A stretch of 64,000 nucleotides of DNA, taken from positions 62,001 to 126,000 of the forward strand of contig NZ_JAFKRH010000014.1 of NCBI RefSeq assembly GCF_019038465.1. The letters are read 5' to 3'. This stretch comes from Synechococcus sp. CCY 0621. GTDB taxonomy: Bacteria > Cyanobacteriota > Cyanobacteriia > PCC-6307 > Cyanobiaceae. The notes under the pieces are model-generated. The model ran no database searches, was not told where the DNA came from, and saw nothing but the letters and a program-made list of their open reading frames with translations. Shown here piece by piece: positions 35,771 through 51,396 of this stretch (its first letter is position 1; every line of letters begins with the position of its first letter). Both the position numbers and the translations under genes were made by a program.

Positions 35771-36325
35771 ATGACGACGCAGTACTACACCGCCTCCAGC
35801 CTGGATGGCTTCGTCGCCACCGAAGACGACTCCTTGGAGTGGCTGTTCCCTCTGGGCGATGTCAAGGAAGCGGGCTATCCGGCCTTCATTGCCCAGGTTG
35901 GTGCGATTGCCATGGGAGCCTCAACGTATGAATGGATGCTGCACCATTCCGACAAAGTTGTGGAGGATTCGGGTTCCGCCTGGCCCTTCACCCAGCCCAC
36001 CTGGGTGTTCACCCATCGCGACCTGCCACCGATCGAGGGCGCCGATCTTCGTTTCGTTCAGGGCAGCGTCCAGGACGTCCACCGAACGATGGTGGAGGTG
36101 GCGGCTGGGAAGAACATCTGGATTGCCGGCGGCGGGGCACTGGCCGTCCAGTTTCATGATGCCGGGTTGCTGGATGAGGCCATCATCCAGATTGGTTCGG
36201 TCACCCTTGGCCAGGGCAAGCCGCTCTTCCCCCGTCGGGTGACCAACCCACCCTGGCGGTTGCTGTCGGTGCGCCAGATCGGTTCGGGTCTGGCCGAGCT
36301 GCATTACGCGCTGCCAGGTCGTTGA
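35771..36325 (+). CDS. Dihydrofolate reductase-like (RibD C-terminal domain) protein
   Basis: A 184-residue protein: MTTQYYTASSLDGFVATEDD is the N-terminal strand of the RibD-C/DHFR fold, GAIAMGASTYEWMLHH the NADPH-binding segment, and IWIAGGGALAVQFHDAGLLD the glycine loop. LGQGKPLFPRRV is typical. Such stand-alone proteins are annotated as DHFR family or YyaP/YwjB-like reductases; activity on folate is not expected. Codon use returns to the high-GC norm here, marking the end of the degraded island. Confidence 0.88.
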   Translation: MTTQYYTASSLDGFVATEDDSLEWLFPLGDVKEAGYPAFIAQVGAIAMGASTYEWMLHHSDKVVEDSGSAWPFTQPTWVFTHRDLPPIEGADLRFVQGSVQDVHRTMVEVAAGKNIWIAGGGALAVQFHDAGLLDEAIIQIGSVTLGQGKPLFPRRVTNPPWRLLSVRQIGSGLAELHYALPGR

Positions 36326-36406
36326 TGCAGCCGATCCTGGCGCCGTGCCCCGCTGGGTGCGGGTGAGAATCATGGCGACGGTGATTCAGGCCATGGCTAG
36401 CCGCTG

Positions 36407-37282
36407 ATGCAGAGCAGCGTTTTCACGGTGGTCCTGCTGCCTCTGGCGTTGGCCATCGTCATGCTCGGCATGGGCCTCAGCCTGCAGCCCGAAGACTTCC
36501 AGCGCATCACGCGCTACCCCAGGGCGGTCGCGGTGGGCACCGTCTGCCAGACCCTTGGGTTACCGCTGCTGGGGGGCCTGATCGCCCTGGTGGTGCCCAT
36601 GGAGCCGGCGATGGCGGTGGGACTGGTGGTCGTGGCCGTCTGCCCGGGCGGGCCGTCTTCGAACCTGATGACCTACCTGGCCCGGGGGGATGTGGCCCTG
36701 TCGGTGACCCTGACGGCCGCGAGCAGCATCGTCACGGTGGTCACGATTCCGCTGTTCACCAACCTGGCCCTCCAGCATTTCCTGGGGGAAGGGGCCGCGA
36801 TCACCCTGCCGATCGGCACCACCATGCTGCAGATCGTGCTGATCACCCTGCTGCCGACGGCCATCGGCATGGCCATCCGCCATCGCTTCCCCGGGCCAGC
36901 CCGACGCCTGGAGAAGCAGATGGGCCGGCTGGCCGGGGGCCTGCTGGCGCTGATCATCCTGCTGCTGTTCATCCGCGAAGCCCCCAAGTTGCCGGGGTTT
37001 CTGGCGCAGATGGGACTGGCCATCGCCCTGCTCAACGTGCTGGCCATGCTGGGGGGCTTCCTGGCTGGAAAGCTGTTCCGGCTGCCGCTGGCCCAGCAAG
37101 TGTGCATCGCGATCGAAGTGGGGATTCAGAACGGAACCCTGGCGATCGCCATCACCGCCGGCCTGCTCAACAACCCCGACATGGCGGTGCCGGCGGCGGT
37201 CTACAGCCTGCTGATGTATTTGTTCGGCTTTGGCGCTGTCCTCTGCGGCAGGCGCCTGATCCCTGCGGTCCGCCGGGCGTGA
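36407..37282 (+). CDS. BASS-family (bile acid:sodium symporter-like) transporter
   Basis: A 291-residue membrane protein of nine to ten helices. LALAIVMLGMGLSLQPEDF, VAVCPGGPSSNLMTYLARGD and AIEVGIQNGTLAIAITA are the family signatures; the last two form the crossed-helix Na+ and substrate site. Bacterial and plastid members move pyruvate, pantothenate, glucosinolate precursors or other organic anions with sodium. Substrate is not readable. The gene stands alone on the plus strand. Confidence 0.9.
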   Translation: MQSSVFTVVLLPLALAIVMLGMGLSLQPEDFQRITRYPRAVAVGTVCQTLGLPLLGGLIALVVPMEPAMAVGLVVVAVCPGGPSSNLMTYLARGDVALSVTLTAASSIVTVVTIPLFTNLALQHFLGEGAAITLPIGTTMLQIVLITLLPTAIGMAIRHRFPGPARRLEKQMGRLAGGLLALIILLLFIREAPKLPGFLAQMGLAIALLNVLAMLGGFLAGKLFRLPLAQQVCIAIEVGIQNGTLAIAITAGLLNNPDMAVPAAVYSLLMYLFGFGAVLCGRRLIPAVRRA

Positions 37283-37288
37283 ACTCCC

Positions 37289-37399
37289 TTGGACCATGTG
37301 CTGATCATCCACGCTGTGCGGGACTACGGGGCCTGGAAACCGGCCACCGGCGCCAGGGAAGCGGCAACCCGCCCCCTGAGATCAGCACTGCCAGAATGA
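37289..37399 (+). pseudogene. Possible N-terminal remnant of a small ABM-like protein
   Basis: A TTG-initiated 36-codon frame reads LDHVLIIHAVRDYGAWKPA and then degenerates. This is very like the opening strand and helix (VLI-H-V-DY--WKP) of small stand-alone antibiotic-monooxygenase-like proteins, which are about 95 residues long. The remainder is missing. The match is short and might be chance. Confidence 0.3.
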
Positions 37400-37419
37400 T
37401 TGTCGTTTCAGGAGCCGCC

Positions 37420-37671
37420 GTGTCGCGCCTTCGGCCGCCCCTCGTCCACCTGGCCGCCGCCGGCCTCCTGGCCGCCCTCGGCAGCGCCCCCGCCCTGGCC
37501 CAGCAGCCCGCCCCTGGCGCCCAGAAGGCGGTGTTCGCCACCAAGGCTGAAGCCGAGGCTGCCGCCAAGCACTTCAACTGCACCGGGGCCCACAAGATGG
37601 GCAACCAGTGGATGCCCTGTGCCACCCATGGCGAAACCCAAGGCGGGACGTCCGGCCACGGCTCCCACTGA
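37420..37671 (+). CDS. Small secreted DUF3721 protein
   Basis: I favour the GTG at 37420 because CAGGAG ends five bases before it; an ATG 24 bp upstream is possible. The 83-residue product has a signal peptide (LVHLAAAGLLAALGSAPALAQ) and a C-terminal DUF3721 domain: FATKAEAEAAAKHFNC then TGAHKMGNQWMPCATH. The spaced Cys, His, Met, Cys and His suggest a metal site, possibly copper, but that is inference. It would be periplasmic or outside. TGATG links it to the next gene, which carries the same domain. Confidence 0.85.
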   Translation: MSRLRPPLVHLAAAGLLAALGSAPALAQQPAPGAQKAVFATKAEAEAAAKHFNCTGAHKMGNQWMPCATHGETQGGTSGHGSH

Positions 37672-38159
37672 TGCCTGACCCAGTCGCGCCGGAAACCCCT
37701 CCCTCCGGCGGCACCCCTCCTGCGATGAGCCCCTCAGCCTGCGGTGGCCGGCCGAAGATCGTGGCCATCGGCATCGCCCCTTTGGGCATCATCTCGATCG
37801 GCATCGTCCCCATGGGGGTGATCAGCATCGGCGTCGTGCCGATGGGGGTGCTGAGCCTGGGGGCGGTGGCGATGGGGGTGATCAATGCCTCCGTCGTCGG
37901 CATGGGCATCCTGATCGCCGGGGTGAACGTGATGGGCGTCTGGTGGGTGGGGATGGAGGGGATGGGCCCCTACCGGCTGGGGAGCCCGAGCGGCCAGGTG
38001 CACCATCACCACAACCACAGCTCAGGCCAGGGCCAGCCGAACCTCTACGCCTACCCCAGCCGCGAGGAGGCCCTGAGGAAGGCGAAGGAACTCGGCTGCG
38101 AAGGGGCCCACGCCATGGGCTCCCTCTGGATGCCCTGCGCGGAGCACCCGTCCCCCTGA
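37671..38159 (+). CDS. DUF3721 protein with a five-residue solenoid repeat
   Basis: A 162-residue protein coupled to the preceding DUF3721 gene (TGATG). Residues 31-100 consist of 14 consecutive five-residue units, mostly x-x-hydrophobic-Gly-hydrophobic (VAIGI, APLGI, ISIGI, VPMGV and so on). This resembles the pentapeptide-repeat beta-helix but with Gly where that family has other residues. A histidine cluster (VHHHHNHSS, 110-118) follows. The C-terminal DUF3721 domain (YPSREEALRKAKELGC, EGAHAMGSLWMPCAEH) keeps the Cys, His, Met, Cys, His spacing of its neighbour. No signal peptide is visible. Function unknown; metal handling is a guess. Confidence 0.85.
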   Translation: MPDPVAPETPPSGGTPPAMSPSACGGRPKIVAIGIAPLGIISIGIVPMGVISIGVVPMGVLSLGAVAMGVINASVVGMGILIAGVNVMGVWWVGMEGMGPYRLGSPSGQVHHHHNHSSGQGQPNLYAYPSREEALRKAKELGCEGAHAMGSLWMPCAEHPSP

Positions 38160-38161
38160 GC

Positions 38162-38647
38162 TCAGGCCAGCGTCTTGAACATCACCAGGGCATCCACCTC
38201 CCCCAGGCGGGGATGGCGGAAGGCCCCGGGCAGCCGGCCGATGGTGCGGAAGCCGTTGCGGCTCCAGGCCGCCACGCCGGCGGTGTTGGTGCTCACCACC
38301 AGATTGAACTGCATCGCCGTGAAGCCCCGCCGCCGGGCCTCCTCCTGGGAGTGGCGGCAGAGGGTATGGCCCACCCCCCGGCCCCGGGCGGCCTCGGCCA
38401 CCACATAGCCGGCATTGGCCACGTGGGCGCCCAGGCACGGCTGGTTGGGGCGCAGGTAGTAGGTGCCCAGGATGGCGCCGTCCGCATCGGTGGCCACGAA
38501 GGTGGCGGCGACGGCCCCCACCCAGGCCTGACGGGCGGCGTCGCTGTCGATGGCCGGGTCGTGGGGGAAGGTCTCGCCGGCCCGGAACACCGGCTCCAGC
38601 ACCGCCCACACCCCTGGCCAGTCGGCCGGCTCGTAAGCCCGGATCAT
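38162..38647 (-). CDS. GNAT-family N-acetyltransferase
   Basis: A 161-residue acetyltransferase with MIRAYEPADWPGVWAVLEPV at the start, acetyl-CoA loop VVAEAARGRGVGHTLCRHSQ (R-G-x-G motif) and VSTNTAGVAAWSRNGFRTIG. Length and order are standard. The acceptor is unknown. Its start overlaps the OsmC stop by 4 bp, so it is the last gene of the persulfide operon, perhaps as a passenger. Its stop is 2 bp from the convergent DUF3721 stop. Confidence 0.9.
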   Translation of the reverse strand: MIRAYEPADWPGVWAVLEPVFRAGETFPHDPAIDSDAARQAWVGAVAATFVATDADGAILGTYYLRPNQPCLGAHVANAGYVVAEAARGRGVGHTLCRHSQEEARRRGFTAMQFNLVVSTNTAGVAAWSRNGFRTIGRLPGAFRHPRLGEVDALVMFKTLA

Positions 38648-39081
38648 CGCGCCGCTTGCACCACGATCGATTTGGTCACCGTACCGGGCAGATTCCGCGA
38701 CACCGGACAGACCTTCATGCGCCGCTCCAGAAAGGCCAGGGTGGGCGCATCCAGCTCGGGCGTCACCGCGCCTTCGGCCGCCTCCAGCCGCACCTCGAAC
38801 GTGCCACTCACCGACTCGACCATCCAGCCGGCGGAGGCGGTCACGTTGAGCCGTCCGTCCACCGCCGCCAGGGGCAGGTGCCGCTCCTGGGCGTTGGCCA
38901 CCAGGTAGTGGTGCTGGCAGAGCAGCAGCGACAGCAGGTACAGCCGAAAGCCGGGGGTCTGCAGGCTGGGCTCCAGCGGCTGCCAGGGCTCAAGCTCGCC
39001 ATCGCGGAAGTCGACGCTGAGGGCATCGCCGACGGCCCCGTGGCGGCTCTGCAGGCGGAACTGGAACAGGAGCTTGGTCAT
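38644..39081 (-). CDS. OsmC/Ohr-like protein
   Basis: A 145-residue protein whose C-terminal ERRMKVCPVSRNLPGTV block is the OsmC signature. Two cysteines, C55 (LLLCQHHYLV) and C125, occupy the positions of the peroxidatic and resolving pair. OsmC proteins reduce organic hydroperoxides and, in sulfur contexts, polysulfides. Four-bp overlaps on both sides tie it to TauE and GNAT. The first strand (LLFQFRLQSRHGAVGDA) is somewhat unlike classical OsmC. Confidence 0.8.
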   Translation of the reverse strand: MTKLLFQFRLQSRHGAVGDALSVDFRDGELEPWQPLEPSLQTPGFRLYLLSLLLCQHHYLVANAQERHLPLAAVDGRLNVTASAGWMVESVSGTFEVRLEAAEGAVTPELDAPTLAFLERRMKVCPVSRNLPGTVTKSIVVQAAR

Positions 39082-39893
39082 CGCTGCTGCGGGACGGTGT
39101 GGGGGGAGGAGATGGAGTTGTTTTGACGTTGGAGGGCTTCAGCGCCCGTGAGCAGGGCCGAACCGACCAGCAGGGCGGCGAAGCCCTGGCGCAGGTGACG
39201 ATCCGACAGGTGCGGGGCCAGGGCCTGGCCGCCGATCGCCCCCGCCAGCCCACCCACCACCAGGGGGCCGAGCAGCGGCAGGCCTGCCGTGGGCCAGTGC
39301 CCCAGGGCGGCCAGGGCCACGAGGCTGTTGGTGGCAATCAGCACCAGGCTGGTGCCGCTGGCCAGGGGCATCGGCAGCCCGGCCAGCAGCACCAGGGAGG
39401 GCACGATGGCGAAGCCGCCGCCGACGCCGGCGATGCCGGTCAGCAGGCCCACCAGCACCCCCTGGCCCGCCAGGGCCAGCGGCGATCCCCCCGACCGGGG
39501 CGCCCGGGCGGTCGGCGTGCCGGTGGGGCGCCGCGAGAGCAGCCAGGCCGCCACCAGGGCGGCGGCGGCGAACACCGCCAGCTGCACAGACTCGGGGATC
39601 AGGCCGTGCTTCACCAACGTGCCTCCGAGCCAGCTGCCCGCCAGGGCCGGCACCCCCAGGAGCAGGGCGGGCCGGGGCGCCACCTGGCGCCGCCGAAGAT
39701 AAGGGCCGGCGTTGGCCACCGCCAGCAGGGTCACCGCCAGCAGCGAGAGCGGCACCGCTTCCCGGGTGGGCAGCCCGGCGCCGCTGATCAGCAGGGGCAG
39801 CAGCAGGATCGAGCCGCCGGCCCCGAGCACCGCCAGCAGGAAGCCGATCAGGGCACCCCCACCGGCCATCAGCAGCAGAACGGCGGCACTCAA
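39078..39893 (-). CDS. TauE/SafE-family sulfite exporter
   Basis: A 271-residue membrane protein with eight helices. GALIGFLLAVLGAGGSILLLP and GLLTGIAGVGGGFAIVPSL are the two signature glycine-rich repeats. The TTG start overlaps the stop of the rhodanese-DUF2892 gene. TauE/SafE proteins export sulfite or sulfoacetate, which fits the sulfite made by the persulfide dioxygenase upstream in this operon. The exported anion is inferred from context. Confidence 0.87.
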   Translation of the reverse strand: MSAAVLLLMAGGGALIGFLLAVLGAGGSILLLPLLISGAGLPTREAVPLSLLAVTLLAVANAGPYLRRRQVAPRPALLLGVPALAGSWLGGTLVKHGLIPESVQLAVFAAAALVAAWLLSRRPTGTPTARAPRSGGSPLALAGQGVLVGLLTGIAGVGGGFAIVPSLVLLAGLPMPLASGTSLVLIATNSLVALAALGHWPTAGLPLLGPLVVGGLAGAIGGQALAPHLSDRHLRQGFAALLVGSALLTGAEALQRQNNSISSPHTVPQQR

Positions 39894-40417
39894 GGATGCA
39901 CCCGGTTCCAGGGCATCACGGCCAGCAGGCGGGCCATGCCGCAGAAGCCGCTGATCCCGGCGAAGCTGAGGCCGGCTCCCACCAAGCCGCTCAGCCAGAT
40001 CCAGCCCGGCGCCACGGTCTGGCTGAGCAGCACTCCCACCAGCACCAGGCCGCCGGCGACGATCTGCACCTGGCGCATCAGCGGCAGTGGCGCCCTGGCG
40101 TGCCGTTGCACGGGCAGGCCGGCTTCCTGCCAGGCCCCGAAGCCCCCTTCCAGTTCCGCCAGGGGTTGGGGATGGCCGCGGCGCAGCAGGTTGGTCAGTC
40201 CCTGGCTGCTGCGGCTGCCGCTCTGGCACAGCAGCACCAGCGGGCCCTCCGGCAGGGTCTCACTGCCCAGCCGTGACAGGGGGATGTTGTGGCTGCCGGC
40301 GATGTGCCCGGAGGCGTATTCCATCGGTTCGCGAACGTCGATCAGCGTCAGCGGCACGGCCTGCCGGTGGTCGGCGAGGTCGCGGGGGGAAAAGCGTCGC
40401 GGGGTGGTGGTGGTCAT
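39890..40417 (-). CDS. Rhodanese domain fused to DUF2892 (YgaP-like) membrane protein
   Basis: A 175-residue protein. Residues 8-105 are a rhodanese domain (LIDVREPMEYASGHIAGSHN) with active-site Cys64 in LLCQSGSRSSQGL. Residues 110-165 hold two membrane helices (IVAGGLVLVGVLLSQ, LSGLVGAGLSFAGISGF) of the DUF2892 type, as in E. coli YgaP. It would pass sulfane sulfur at the membrane. It lies 45 bp downstream of the persulfide dioxygenase gene and overlaps the TauE gene. Confidence 0.9.
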   Translation of the reverse strand: MTTTTPRRFSPRDLADHRQAVPLTLIDVREPMEYASGHIAGSHNIPLSRLGSETLPEGPLVLLCQSGSRSSQGLTNLLRRGHPQPLAELEGGFGAWQEAGLPVQRHARAPLPLMRQVQIVAGGLVLVGVLLSQTVAPGWIWLSGLVGAGLSFAGISGFCGMARLLAVMPWNRVHP

Positions 40418-40462
40418 GCTTCTGACGGTGGGGGAGTGAATGGGGAAGGGGGTGTTGCGGGC

Positions 40463-41590
40463 TCAGGTGGGGGTCGGGGTCGGCACCTCCAGCGGCAGGC
40501 CCTCGGCCTGCCAGCCCCGCAGGCCGCCGCGCAGGTTGGCTACGGGGTTGTGGCCCCGCTTCAGCAGCTCCTGGGTGGCCAGGGCCGAGCGGCTGCCGGA
40601 ATGGCACAGCACCACCACGGGCTTGCCTGTAGGGATCTCGGCGGCGCGGGCTGCCAGCTCCGGCAGGGGGATGGCCAGGCAGCCCGGCACCTGCCCATCG
40701 GGCCCGAGCACCTCGGCCTCGGAGCGCACATCCACCAGGGTCAGCTGGTCGCGGTGCGCGGCCACCCAGGCGGCTGCCACCTCCGGCAGGCCCGCGTAAC
40801 TGCGTTCGACCGGTCCCCAGTCGTCCTCTTGGCTGTGGTCAGCGTCGCTGGGCCTGCCCGAGCGCAGGTTGGCCGGCAGGGCCTCGGCGATCCGATGGGG
40901 ATGGGGCAGGTGCAGGTTCTCCATGTAGCCCACGAAGTCCCGCTCGTCGGCACCACCGCCGAGCCTGGCGTTGTAGGCCTTCTCTTCGGCGACCGAGCTC
41001 ACCTGGCGACCGCTGTAATCGTGCGCTGGGTAGAGCTGACACCGGTCCGGCAGCGAGAGGATCTGCTCGGTGATCGAGCGGAAGAGGGTGTGGGCATTGC
41101 CCTGCTGGAAATCGCAGCGGCCGCAGCCCCGCACCAGCAGGGCGTCGCCGGTGAAGGCCAGGCTCCGGTCGTCGAGCACGAACGTGAGGCAGCTATCGGT
41201 GTGCCCCGGGGTGGCGCGCACTTCCAGATGGCGGCCGCCGAAGCGCACCCGCTCGCCATGGGCCAGGGGCAGGGTCACGTTCCTGGCGCGGGCCGCGGCG
41301 GCCAGGCCGATGGCGCAGCTGGTGGCCTGGTGCATCCGCCAGCTGCCGGTCACGTGGTCGGCATGGGCGTGGGTGTCGAGACAGGCCACCAGATCGATGC
41401 CCAGTTCCCGCGCCAGGGAGAGATCGCGGGGGTGTTGTTCGTACACCGGATCGATCAGCACCCCTTCGCCGGAGGGCACATCGGCCAGAAGGTAGGTGAA
41501 GGTGCCGGTTTCGGCGTCGAAGAGCTGGCGGAACAGCAGTTGTGCCCCGCCGGCGGCGGCGTCAAGCGGAAACGGAGGGACGGACGCCAT
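40463..41590 (-). CDS. Persulfide dioxygenase-rhodanese fusion (ETHE1/Blh-like)
   Basis: A 375-residue protein. Residues 15-245 are a metallo-beta-lactamase-fold persulfide dioxygenase: LDTHAHADHVTGS (H74, H76, D78, H79), H130 in ATPGHTDSC, D149 in FTGDALLVRGCGRCDF and H190 in YPAHDY. The GRCDFQ block is diagnostic of the ETHE1 branch. Residues 270-370 are a rhodanese domain with Cys329 in VVLCHSGSRSA. It oxidises glutathione persulfide to sulfite and the rhodanese can make thiosulfate. It heads the operon and is divergent from the ArsR regulator. Confidence 0.92.
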   Translation of the reverse strand: MASVPPFPLDAAAGGAQLLFRQLFDAETGTFTYLLADVPSGEGVLIDPVYEQHPRDLSLARELGIDLVACLDTHAHADHVTGSWRMHQATSCAIGLAAAARARNVTLPLAHGERVRFGGRHLEVRATPGHTDSCLTFVLDDRSLAFTGDALLVRGCGRCDFQQGNAHTLFRSITEQILSLPDRCQLYPAHDYSGRQVSSVAEEKAYNARLGGGADERDFVGYMENLHLPHPHRIAEALPANLRSGRPSDADHSQEDDWGPVERSYAGLPEVAAAWVAAHRDQLTLVDVRSEAEVLGPDGQVPGCLAIPLPELAARAAEIPTGKPVVVLCHSGSRSALATQELLKRGHNPVANLRGGLRGWQAEGLPLEVPTPTPT

Positions 41591-41760
41591 CGAAACAAGC
41601 TGGGCTGGCTGCTATGACCATACACGCATACAACGACTAAAGAGTGGATGCGGCTGCGATGCAGCGTCCCGCAGCGGCCAGCTCCGTTGCGGAACCGATC
41701 TGGCTTGGGCCACGGCTCGGGAAACCCTGCATAATTCCTCTAGCGACATACCCTTCTGCC
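41591..41760. promoter_or_regulatory. Divergent promoter region of the persulfide operon and its ArsR regulator
   Basis: This 170-bp gap holds both promoters. For arsR a CATAAT -10-like hexamer lies at 41730-41735, about 26 bp before the ATG. Near the operon start, TATGACCATA (41613-41622) has TATG and CATA arms around a two-base centre and sits in a locally AT-rich patch, a plausible operator half or -10 on the minus strand. Positions are read from sequence; regulator binding here is inference. Confidence 0.4.
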
Positions 41761-42105
41761 ATGGTCGTTGCCGGCCCCGGTTCCATTCCCAGTCCCGAAC
41801 TGCTGGAGGAGTTCAGCCAGTTCTTCCGCCTGCTGAGTGAACCGGCCCGGCTCCAGCTGCTCTGCCATCTGCGCCAGGGTTCGGCCGATGTCGCCTATCT
41901 GATCGAGGCCACCGGCTTCAGCCAGTCCCACATCAGCCGCCAGCTGTCCCAGCTGCAGCGGGCTGGCCTGGTGACCTGCGACCGGGACGGGGTCCGGCTC
42001 ATCTACCGGGCCGACACCGAGCTGGTGGAGGAGCTCTGCAACCTGGTGCAGCACCGCATGAAGCAACGCCTCCAGCAGCAGCTGGATCAGCTTCAGACCG
42101 CCTGA
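41761..42105 (+). CDS. ArsR-family regulator, BigR/SqrR-like persulfide sensor
   Basis: A 114-residue winged-helix repressor. FRLLSEPARLQLLCHLRQG is the N-terminal ArsR signature and FSQSHISRQLSQLQRAGLV the recognition helix. Cysteines occur at C35 (helix 2), C73 and C93 (C-terminal helix). C35 and C93 are close to the positions of the two sensing cysteines of BigR and SqrR, which form a di- to tetrasulfide bridge and release DNA. The metal-binding motif of ArsR (CxC) is absent. It should repress the divergent persulfide operon and itself. Confidence 0.87.
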   Translation: MVVAGPGSIPSPELLEEFSQFFRLLSEPARLQLLCHLRQGSADVAYLIEATGFSQSHISRQLSQLQRAGLVTCDRDGVRLIYRADTELVEELCNLVQHRMKQRLQQQLDQLQTA

Positions 42106-49886: not shown

Positions 49887-50597
49887 ATGGCCGTCTTTCC
49901 CTTCTCTACGGACGTGCATGCCGATCTGGGCCAACGGGCCGTCGTCGACAGCAACATGCTGCCCTGGCTCCCCTCCCCCCTGGCCGGGGTGGAGCGGCGC
50001 CTGCTGGATCGCGACGGCGGCGAGGTCGCCCGGGCCACCTCGCTGGTCCGCTACGCCCCCGCCAGCAGCTTTTCCCCCCATCACCACGGCGGCGGCGAAG
50101 AGTTCCTTGTGCTTGAAGGTGTCTTTTCCGATGAGCACGGCGACTACGGCCCGGGCACCTACGTGCGCAACCCGGTCGGCTCCGCCCATGCCCCCTTCAG
50201 TGCGGCCGGATGCACCATCCTGGTGAAACTGCGGCAGATGGATCCGGCCGACCAGACACGGGTCGTGATCGACACCCGGCGCTCTGTCTTCGTGCCTGGC
50301 CTGGTCGCTGGACTGACCGTGCTGCCCCTGCACGGCTTCGGGACCGAACAGGTGGCCCTGGTGCGCTGGCAGCCGGACACCCGCTTCCCTCTCCACGCCC
50401 ATTCCGGGGGCGAGGAGATCTTCGTGCTCGACGGGGTGTTCGAAGACGAGCAGGGTGCCTATCCGGCGGGCACCTGGCTACGCAACCCGCCCGGCAGCCG
50501 CCATGCCCCCTTCAGCCACAGCGGTTGCCTGATCTGGGTCAAGACCGGCCACCTGGCGCCGCCATTCCCCGCCATGGAGCCAGCGCCAGGGCGGTAA
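49887..50597 (+). CDS. Soluble bicupin of the ChrR-cupin type
   Basis: A 236-residue protein made of two ChrR-like cupin units. Unit 1 has HHHGGGEEFLVLEGVFSDEH with H65-H67 and E71, then GTYVRNPVGSAHAP with H101. Unit 2 has HAHSGGEEIFVLDGVFEDEQ with H170, H172 and E176, then GTWLRNPPGSRHAP with H206. Both metal sites look intact. In ChrR the cupin is fused to the anti-sigma domain; here it is a separate gene three bp after the anti-sigma gene. It may sense or consume the oxidant. The last 59 bp overlap the znuB-like gene on the other strand. Confidence 0.88.
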   Translation: MAVFPFSTDVHADLGQRAVVDSNMLPWLPSPLAGVERRLLDRDGGEVARATSLVRYAPASSFSPHHHGGGEEFLVLEGVFSDEHGDYGPGTYVRNPVGSAHAPFSAAGCTILVKLRQMDPADQTRVVIDTRRSVFVPGLVAGLTVLPLHGFGTEQVALVRWQPDTRFPLHAHSGGEEIFVLDGVFEDEQGAYPAGTWLRNPPGSRHAPFSHSGCLIWVKTGHLAPPFPAMEPAPGR

Positions 50598-51396
50598 GGA
50601 AGCCCACCAGCTGGGCGATCACCACGCTCGGGCCCGACGGCAGGGCGAAGGCGGCCGAGAGCAGCAGGCCCAGCACGGCGCAGGCGGCCCCCAGCCCGGC
50701 GGCCAGCACCACATAGGTGTCGAAGCGGCGGCTCACCAGCCGCGAGGCGCAGGCGGGGATGACCACGAAGGCGCTGATCAGCAGCACCCCCACGGCCTTG
50801 ACGGAGATGGCCACCACCACGGCCAGCAGGATCAGGAACAGCAGCCGGTGCACGGAGACCGCGACCCCTCGGGAACGGGCCAGGGGTTCGTCGAGGGTGA
50901 GCAGCACCTGGTCGCGCCGGGTGAGGGTGAGGTAGCCGGTGGTGACGACAAGCAGGAGCCCGATCAGGCCGAGGTCGAGCCAGGTGACCCCCAGGATGTC
51001 GCCGAAGAGCAGCTGCTGGATGCCGCCCTTGTAGACCCGCAGCAGGCTCAGGGCCACCACGGCCATGGCCAGCGATGAGGAGTAGACGATGTTCAGCAGG
51101 GCATCCGCCGGCAGGCGGCTGCGTTGCACCAGCTGGTTCGTCATCAGGGCGAAGAGCACCGCAAAGGGGATCAGCACCAGGGTGGGATCGATGCCCAGCA
51201 GGATTCCCAGCGTGATGCCGAGCAGGGCGGAATGGCCCAGGGCGTCACTGAAGAAGGAGAGCTGGCGCAGCACAGCAAAACTTCCCAGCACCCCGCCGAG
51301 GGCGCCGCTCAACAGCCCGCCGAGAAGCGCCCGCTGCATGAACGGCAGCTGCAGCAGGTCCACCAGGGTCGATCCCTCCGTCATGTCCACGGCCAT
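50539..51396 (-). CDS. znuB: Zinc/manganese-type ABC transporter permease (ZnuB family)
   Basis: A 285-residue permease with about eight helices. LGSFAVLRQLSFFSDALGHSALLGI is the diagnostic N-terminal motif of metal-type ABC-3 permeases, and AISVKAVGVLLISAFVVIPACASRL the C-terminal one. It should import Zn2+, Mn2+ or Fe2+. No ATPase or binding-protein gene lies nearby, so the partners must be elsewhere. The last 59 bp overlap the bicupin gene in antisense. Confidence 0.9.
   Translation of the reverse strand: MAVDMTEGSTLVDLLQLPFMQRALLGGLLSGALGGVLGSFAVLRQLSFFSDALGHSALLGITLGILLGIDPTLVLIPFAVLFALMTNQLVQRSRLPADALLNIVYSSSLAMAVVALSLLRVYKGGIQQLLFGDILGVTWLDLGLIGLLLVVTTGYLTLTRRDQVLLTLDEPLARSRGVAVSVHRLLFLILLAVVVAISVKAVGVLLISAFVVIPACASRLVSRRFDTYVVLAAGLGAACAVLGLLLSAAFALPSGPSVVIAQLVGFLTALALAPWRGMAAPGGRS

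Follow-up and report, generated by a model that had tools for sequence, protein, structure and literature searches.

DUF3721 proteins form a near-core pair in picocyanobacteria, with a decapeptide repeat in one partner and a possible role in metal handling

Two adjacent genes for DUF3721 proteins, here called A and B, are found in most sampled picocyanobacteria and constitute a near-core pair. In the 64-kb stretch of Synechococcus sp. CCY 0621 DNA that we analysed (the window), A encodes a small, exported-looking protein, with a signal peptide judged by eye, and B encodes a hydrophobic Gly/Met decapeptide repeat, a His stretch, and a DUF3721 domain of its own. Because the two genes often lie beside metal-uptake genes, their products probably help to handle zinc or a similar metal, and we tentatively read them as a picocyanobacterial accessory module for the handling of transition metals, with zinc as the most likely metal. 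The coordinates of the features are given in Table 1.

Table 1. Features of the A-B locus, in window coordinates.
Feature	Coordinates	Strand	Details
Zur-box-like site AATGATTGTCGTT	37395..37407	+	12 bp before the GTG of A; two mismatches to AATGATNATCATT
Gene A, DUF3721 protein	37420..37671	+	83 aa; GTG start, TGA stop 37669-37671
DUF3721 domain of A	37534..37629	+	residues 39-70; C-x3-H-x8-C-x2-H; PF12518 62.2 bits
Gene B, repeat + His stretch + DUF3721	37671..38159	+	162 aa; ATG start
Gly/Met decapeptide repeat of B, hydrophobic	37758..37982	+	residues 30-104; PF01744 54.8 bits; lag-10 periodicity
HHHHNH stretch of B	38001..38018	+	residues 111-116; read from sequence; not universal among orthologues
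DUF3721 domain of B	38052..38150	+	residues 128-160; PF12518 58 bits
Key residues of the B DUF3721 domain			C143, H147, M149, C156, H159

The stop codon of A and the ATG of B overlap by one base, and an ATG at 37396 was recognized by eye as an alternative in-frame start of A. Both proteins passed the 27-bit cut-off of PF12518 (DUF3721), a family without assigned function, and their two domains were the only DUF3721 domains in the genome of the window. Neither protein matched NCBIfam at E 0.1, no promoter or terminator consensus was found at 37200-38300, and Rfam gave no match near the pair (36000-39000). A phage or plasmid origin of the pair was rejected, since no relative of A or B was found in phages and a search with B found no relative in plasmids.

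DUF3721 was present in 35 of 60 relatives (35/37 within the family and 0/23 outside it) and in 56 of 386 genomes across the phylum (56/57 Cyanobiaceae and 0/329 other cyanobacteria), and it was absent from all 14 control genomes. Relatives of B were detected at E 1e-5 in 338 of 400 Cyanobiaceae genomes and 54 of 59 genera, the 338 including some weak matches (E ~1e-6) that are possibly to DUF3721 alone; among the better of these genomes, the count was 230 of 251. Relatives of B are encoded by 344 stretches of GTDB contigs, of which the best 80 were kept for locus analysis. These best 80 carry names of picocyanobacteria or uncultured cyanobacteria, except for L078, a bin labelled Gammaproteobacteria.

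The two DUF3721 genes had been described as coupled from the sequence of the window, and the coupling extends to its relatives. A small DUF3721 ORF lay on the strand of B in 69 of the best 80 of 344 loci and ended within ~125 bp of the start of B in 68 of the 69, the exception being L101, in which it lay downstream; starts were chosen by rule, and overlaps beyond a few bases are artefacts of that choice. The other 11 loci had no adjoining small DUF3721 ORF, and seven of them were marine Synechococcus-type (L075, L077, L078, L079, L081, L095, and L105).

The C/H/M/C/H pattern common to the two proteins (C/H/M..W-M-P-C..H; CTGAHKMGNQWMPCATH in A and CEGAHAMGSLWMPCAEH in B) is conserved. Among 70 small DUF3721 ORFs on the plus strand, its residues were kept in 69 (C), 70 (H), 68 (M), 70 (C), and 70 (H), a count that omits a diverged DUF3721 protein on the minus strand of L084 (from 9735), in which WMPF replaces WMPC; in the B domains of the best 80 of 344 loci, the corresponding counts were 80, 80, 80, 80, and 79. 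In an alignment of 54 B proteins, C24, G25, P28, M48, M58, M68, M78, and M88 were invariant, as were C143, H147, M149, W153, and C156, and H159 was kept in at least 90% of the sequences.

The repeat of B carries Gly at 14 of 15 positions spaced five residues apart (residues 34-104), with Ser at position 74, and each B protein of the best 80 of 344 loci has 11 to 15 Gly at this spacing. Self-identity of the repeat was 0.48 at lag 10, 0.43 at lag 20, and 0.26 at lag 5, compared with ~0.12 in shuffles; the lag-10 value was reached by 0 and the lag-5 value by 1 of 2000 shuffles. The sequence-only reading had counted 14 five-residue Gly units; the spacing of Gly agrees with this, but the repeating unit is in fact a decamer ([IL]GIVPMGVVS) in which the Met is almost invariant, since the lag-10 signal exceeds that at lag 5. 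Across 486 decamers of 81 proteins, the second Gly was present in all 486 and was preceded by Met in 405, Leu in 79, and Gln in 2; because Leu and Gln are residues of the first decamer, the other five decamers always have Met at this position.

That reading had also set the repeat apart from standard pentapeptide repeats. These (PF00805 and kin) resemble B as short periodic repeats, with a possible beta-solenoid in B, but usually have Asp or Asn where B has Gly, and B matched none of these Pfam families at E 0.1. One correction to that reading is that the repeat is a catalogued one: B matched the GLTT repeat (PF01744, cut-off 21 bits) in three stretches. The GLTT repeat, which has been described in nematodes, likewise has Gly every five residues, whereas the unit in B is a decamer in which Met and Pro/Ser alternate, and the repeat of B is fused to DUF3721. 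Both DUF3721 and the GLTT repeat are catalogued yet uncharacterised families.

The repeat of B is followed, as originally noted, by VHHHHNHSS (residues 110-118), and 21 of the orthologues in the best 80 of 344 loci have at most one His in this linker. A lipobox-like start of A was found in 19 of 69 loci, 18 of which are among the 21 whose B linker is poor in His, and the tail of A had a median of 6 His in His-poor-linker loci (20 loci) versus 2 in the others (49 loci); linkers, tails, and lipoboxes were delimited by simple patterns. This association is a clade-level covariation and not a series of many independent events.

We then considered the genes surrounding B. Of 34 single-contig genomes, 24, representing 8 of 14 genera, have a FUR or ABC-3 gene no more than 5 kb from B, against an expectation of 0.59 and at most 4 in 5000 random placements; an ABC-3 gene alone was this close in 7 of 34 (0.28 expected), and 10 of 34 had neither gene within 5 kb. 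The 34 genomes remained from 46, chosen by hand from those with a listed B position, after 12 multi-contig genomes were dropped, and the placement test used the first listed B per genome and some rounded genome sizes. One genus (g57) accounted for 15 of the 24 positive genomes, and its neighbour is of the highest-scoring Fur-type (iron-like, below the NCBIfam cut-off), not Zur-type. Among the dropped genomes, G278 and G285 had a Fur-type gene within 1 kb of B; an ABC-3 gene lay at 5.4 kb in G025, at 9-10 kb in G018, G013, G008, and G006, at 11.5 kb in G004, and at 12.9 kb in G000; and no such gene was found near B in G164, G176, and G075. A Pfam scan of 136 of the 298 neighbouring ORFs, which rest on rough gene calls in GC-rich DNA, identified FUR (7), HupE_UreJ (6), Radical_SAM (6), DUF3641 (5), TauE (4), adh_short (4), and ABC-3 (2).

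In L096, L103, L110, L202, and L207, A-B lies within an island of znuB, a Fur-family gene, znuC, znuA, and a COG0523 GTPase gene; the families were checked on L103, L096, and L202 and extended to the other loci through sequence clusters. Genes for cobW, znuA, an ATPase, FUR, ABC-3, and an M23 peptidase are next to B-A in L203, and A, B, ABC-3, an ATPase gene, and znuA occur together in L088. Putative zinc ABC importer genes accompany A-B in all of these loci, but neither in the window nor in most loci. In L200, a lone DUF3721 gene follows an ABC-3 gene by ~120 bp on the same strand as an ArsP-like permease gene, znuC, znuB, and znuA, the neighbour being a Mn-type ABC; NCBIfam left both Mn and Zn possible for these transporters, with every match below cut-off. 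All 7 marine-type (g57) genomes common to both lists also carry a lone DUF3721 gene at a distance of 0.3-2.4 kb from an ABC-3 gene. In the 10 genomes of g28, the zinc-type znuA does not adjoin B and lies at least 7 kb from every listed DUF3721 gene, as determined by hand.

The pair's own neighbours in the window are sulfur genes. A sulfur/persulfide-type cluster at 38644-42105 encodes an OsmC-like protein (below cut-off), TauE, a rhodanese with a YgaP-like segment, a metallo-beta-lactamase plus rhodanese, and an ArsR/SmtB-type regulator, and the TauE gene after the pair is also present in close relatives of the window. An ABC-3 metal-permease gene lies on the minus strand at 50539-51396, 12-13 kb from the pair, and no P-loop ATPase was seen by motif around it at 44-58 kb. 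Elsewhere, a MerR-like regulator gene (by eye; L206:7001-7408, plus strand) adjoins B of G020, and genes for the arsenosugar radical SAM protein ArsS (L105:4697-5677, plus strand) and a SepF-like protein lie upstream of B in L105 and its relatives among marine Synechococcus.

A Zur-box-like site precedes A in the window. Compared with the cyanobacterial Zur box consensus quoted in PMC9337993, it was the sole match with at most two mismatches in the 64 kb, where 0.22 were expected and 20 of 100 shuffles had at least one. Of 7 aligned loci, all but L035 have exactly this site, although the preceding DNA had diverged in L037 and L038; this alignment leaves out L034, L039, L042, L019, and L021, which the search pattern did not catch, and the best sites before A had 2, 3, and 4 mismatches in L034, L039, and L042, respectively. 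The site overlaps the ATG at 37396 and may be coding, because this ATG is in frame with A and is followed by a three-base insertion in L037 and L038; the lack of silent changes weakly favours a DNA element. A Zur box before A in general was rejected: only 7 of the best 80 of 344 loci reached two mismatches, six at the window position in close relatives and L099 elsewhere, and the best upstream site had 3 mismatches in 14 loci, 4 in 33, 5 in 22, and 6 in 4.

The same consensus was matched with one mismatch between znuC and znuA in L202, L207, L096, L103, and L110, with an additional one-mismatch site inside znuA of L103, and without mismatch before znuA of L200, and no box was found before A in the Prochlorococcus islands. 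A relaxed box pattern gave 47 matches in the window's genome versus 5 for a reversed control; the other match inspected (L161) lies in coding-looking sequence, and the three FUR and two ZnuA loci of this genome had no site with at most three mismatches. In strain WH8102, synw0972/0973, which could conceivably correspond to this pair, are described as responding to Zur (PMC9337993).

In the metal-handling reading that we prefer, A, which has a lipobox-like start in many Prochlorococcus, would be exported and bind a metal ion through its C-x3-H-x8-C-x2-H motif. B would add a second C/H/C/H motif and a His-rich stretch, the latter being richer in the A tail in one Prochlorococcus-type group, and its decapeptide repeat with a Met/His ladder would let B dock at the membrane or on a partner. 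Together, the two proteins would capture metal at the envelope, buffer it, and hand it over to ABC-3-type importers. The conserved C/H/C/H residues and the neighbouring genes for Fur-family proteins, ABC-3, znuA, COG0523, and HupE/UreJ lend partial support to the undescribed metal-handling pair suggested by the sequence-only reading. The metal-handling reading is further favoured by the Zur-box-like site of the window and by the His-rich tails and Met/His ladders of homologues that have only the repeat (see below); against it speak the sulfur genes around the pair in the window, the Fur-type neighbour in most of the positive genomes, the 10 of 34 genomes without a FUR or ABC-3 gene close to B, the position of znuA in g28, and the missing boxes before A in the Prochlorococcus islands and at the two ZnuA genes of the window's genome.

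Zinc is not singled out by these neighbours, because a HupE/UreJ cluster (Ni/Co-type) adjoins B in 10 loci and the ABC in L200 is Mn-type. It is conceivable, if rather doubtful, that A and B act on a metal other than zinc (Cu+, Ni2+, Co2+, Fe, or Mn). The ladder Met/His and the DUF3721 Met would be copper-type ligands, with Met in 405/405 later decamers and His for Met at three decamers in five homologues; alternatively, the HupE/UreJ genes (Pfam-confirmed in 6/136 neighbours) and the Fur-type gene beside B in 16/34 genomes would point to nickel, cobalt, or iron. The zur-znuABC islands across several lineages argue against another metal. Copper, for which the sequence-only reading had proposed tests, is supported by no identified neighbour, no copper gene having been identified near the pair, and zinc is the better guess.

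We also predicted the fold of B by AlphaFold2. With the 54-sequence alignment, the model of full B had a mean pLDDT of 58.7, with the repeat as strands only (pLDDT ~50) and DUF3721 as a helix (131-141) and two short strands (pLDDT ~84-94). This confident helix-strand-strand domain, the two conserved Cys per domain, and the persulfide/sulfur neighbours in the window would also suit a small fold that is held by a disulfide or structural zinc and binds protein partners. The pair would then serve as an adaptor, structural or stress-related, and its proximity to the metal genes would have another cause. We regard this as unlikely, given that His is conserved as strongly as Cys and that metal genes occur near B in 8/14 genera. 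Foldseek gave no match at E 0.001 for the full model or for the repeat alone, and the best VIA Z for the full model was 4.9. A sequence search of B against solved structures gave 300 matches up to E 10, the strongest of them at E 0.023, and most of the matches listed cover the His stretch.

AlphaFold applied to the repeat alone, without an alignment, gave a best model (pLDDT 80.5) in which B 29-57 form strands and B 58-96 a helix, and four other models at pLDDT 56-71. The two predictions therefore disagree, one having strands and the other a long helix over half of the repeat, also as regards the right-handed four-sided beta-helix of pentapeptide repeat proteins. The five-residue solenoid of the sequence-only reading is accordingly partly right, with the unit corrected to ten residues and the solenoid fold a possibility; the ordinary transmembrane structure that this reading had named as counting against it would be another, given the long helix in one of the two predictions. 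An ordinary hydrophobic transmembrane segment, making B a membrane-anchored DUF3721 protein, would fit this helix and the composition of the repeat (93% hydrophobic or small; peak Kyte-Doolittle 2.35 over 19 residues) but is improbable, as the strict ten-residue register is kept in other cyanobacterial families and suits no single helix face, the alignment-based model has strands only, albeit at pLDDT ~50, and the other four repeat-alone models score lower.

A query with a homologue that has the repeat and no DUF3721 found relatives at E 1e-6 in 89 of 386 genomes (55/57 Cyanobiaceae and 34/329 others), and the GLTT profile matched in 26 of 146 genomes. This homologue is 53% identical to B (51/96 columns), from a CGGR-like start through the His tail. 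Among 17 distinct repeat-only proteins, five have the ladder His, His, His, Met, Met, Met, and the others have Met at most ladder positions, the first decamer having T, A, or I wherever the pattern caught it. At least two His were present among the last 16 residues in 16 of the 17, and at least three among the last 15 residues in 12 of 15 tails, which were entered by hand, versus 19 of 411 other genes. Since the repeat with a His tail occurs outside Cyanobiaceae, DUF3721 looks as though it was joined, in Cyanobiaceae, to a more ancient protein made of the repeat and a His tail. Reading 12 loci of 3 kb by eye revealed no metal genes near most repeat-only genes, and L182 has an apparent efflux adaptor gene, also judged by eye. 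Prochlorococcus-like genomes carry repeat-only paralogues in L183 (G068), L185 (G087), G122, and G268, which lie within ~1 kb of B in G068, G122, and G268.

A bolder picture, which we consider highly improbable as a whole, would make the repeat a new kind of metal relay, built as a beta-repeat embedded in or apposed to the membrane, along whose Met/His ladder zinc or copper would pass from one compartment to another; DUF3721 domains would load and unload it, and picocyanobacteria would have fused this loader to the repeat while other cyanobacteria kept the repeat and a His-rich tail.

Zinc chaperones that pass metal to importers, such as AztD and ZinT, are known elsewhere. They would work similarly to A-B, being small proteins of the envelope whose genes lie in or beside znu/azt-type operons, but the domains of A-B differ and matched neither in Pfam and NCBIfam scans. 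The metallothioneins BmtA/SmtA are also small Cys/His proteins and are tied to Zur in Synechococcus (PMC9337993), whereas A-B have one C/H/C/H motif only, A is exported-looking, and no metallothionein match was obtained in Pfam or NCBIfam. The accessible literature searched contained no mention of DUF3721, PF12518, or the GLTT repeat, and neither the A-B pairing, the repeat fusion in B, nor the metal-gene link was found in it.

The combination of A and B is close to being a core feature of a group of major ecological importance, and its link to metal genes rests on gene neighbourhood. Marine Synechococcus and Prochlorococcus grow well where zinc is very scarce (PMC9337993). If the metal-handling reading is true, the pair would be a missing part of the picocyanobacterial metal economy, lying in several lineages inside zinc-uptake islands, and its repeat, bearing a Met/His ladder, would represent a new way of arraying metal ligands.
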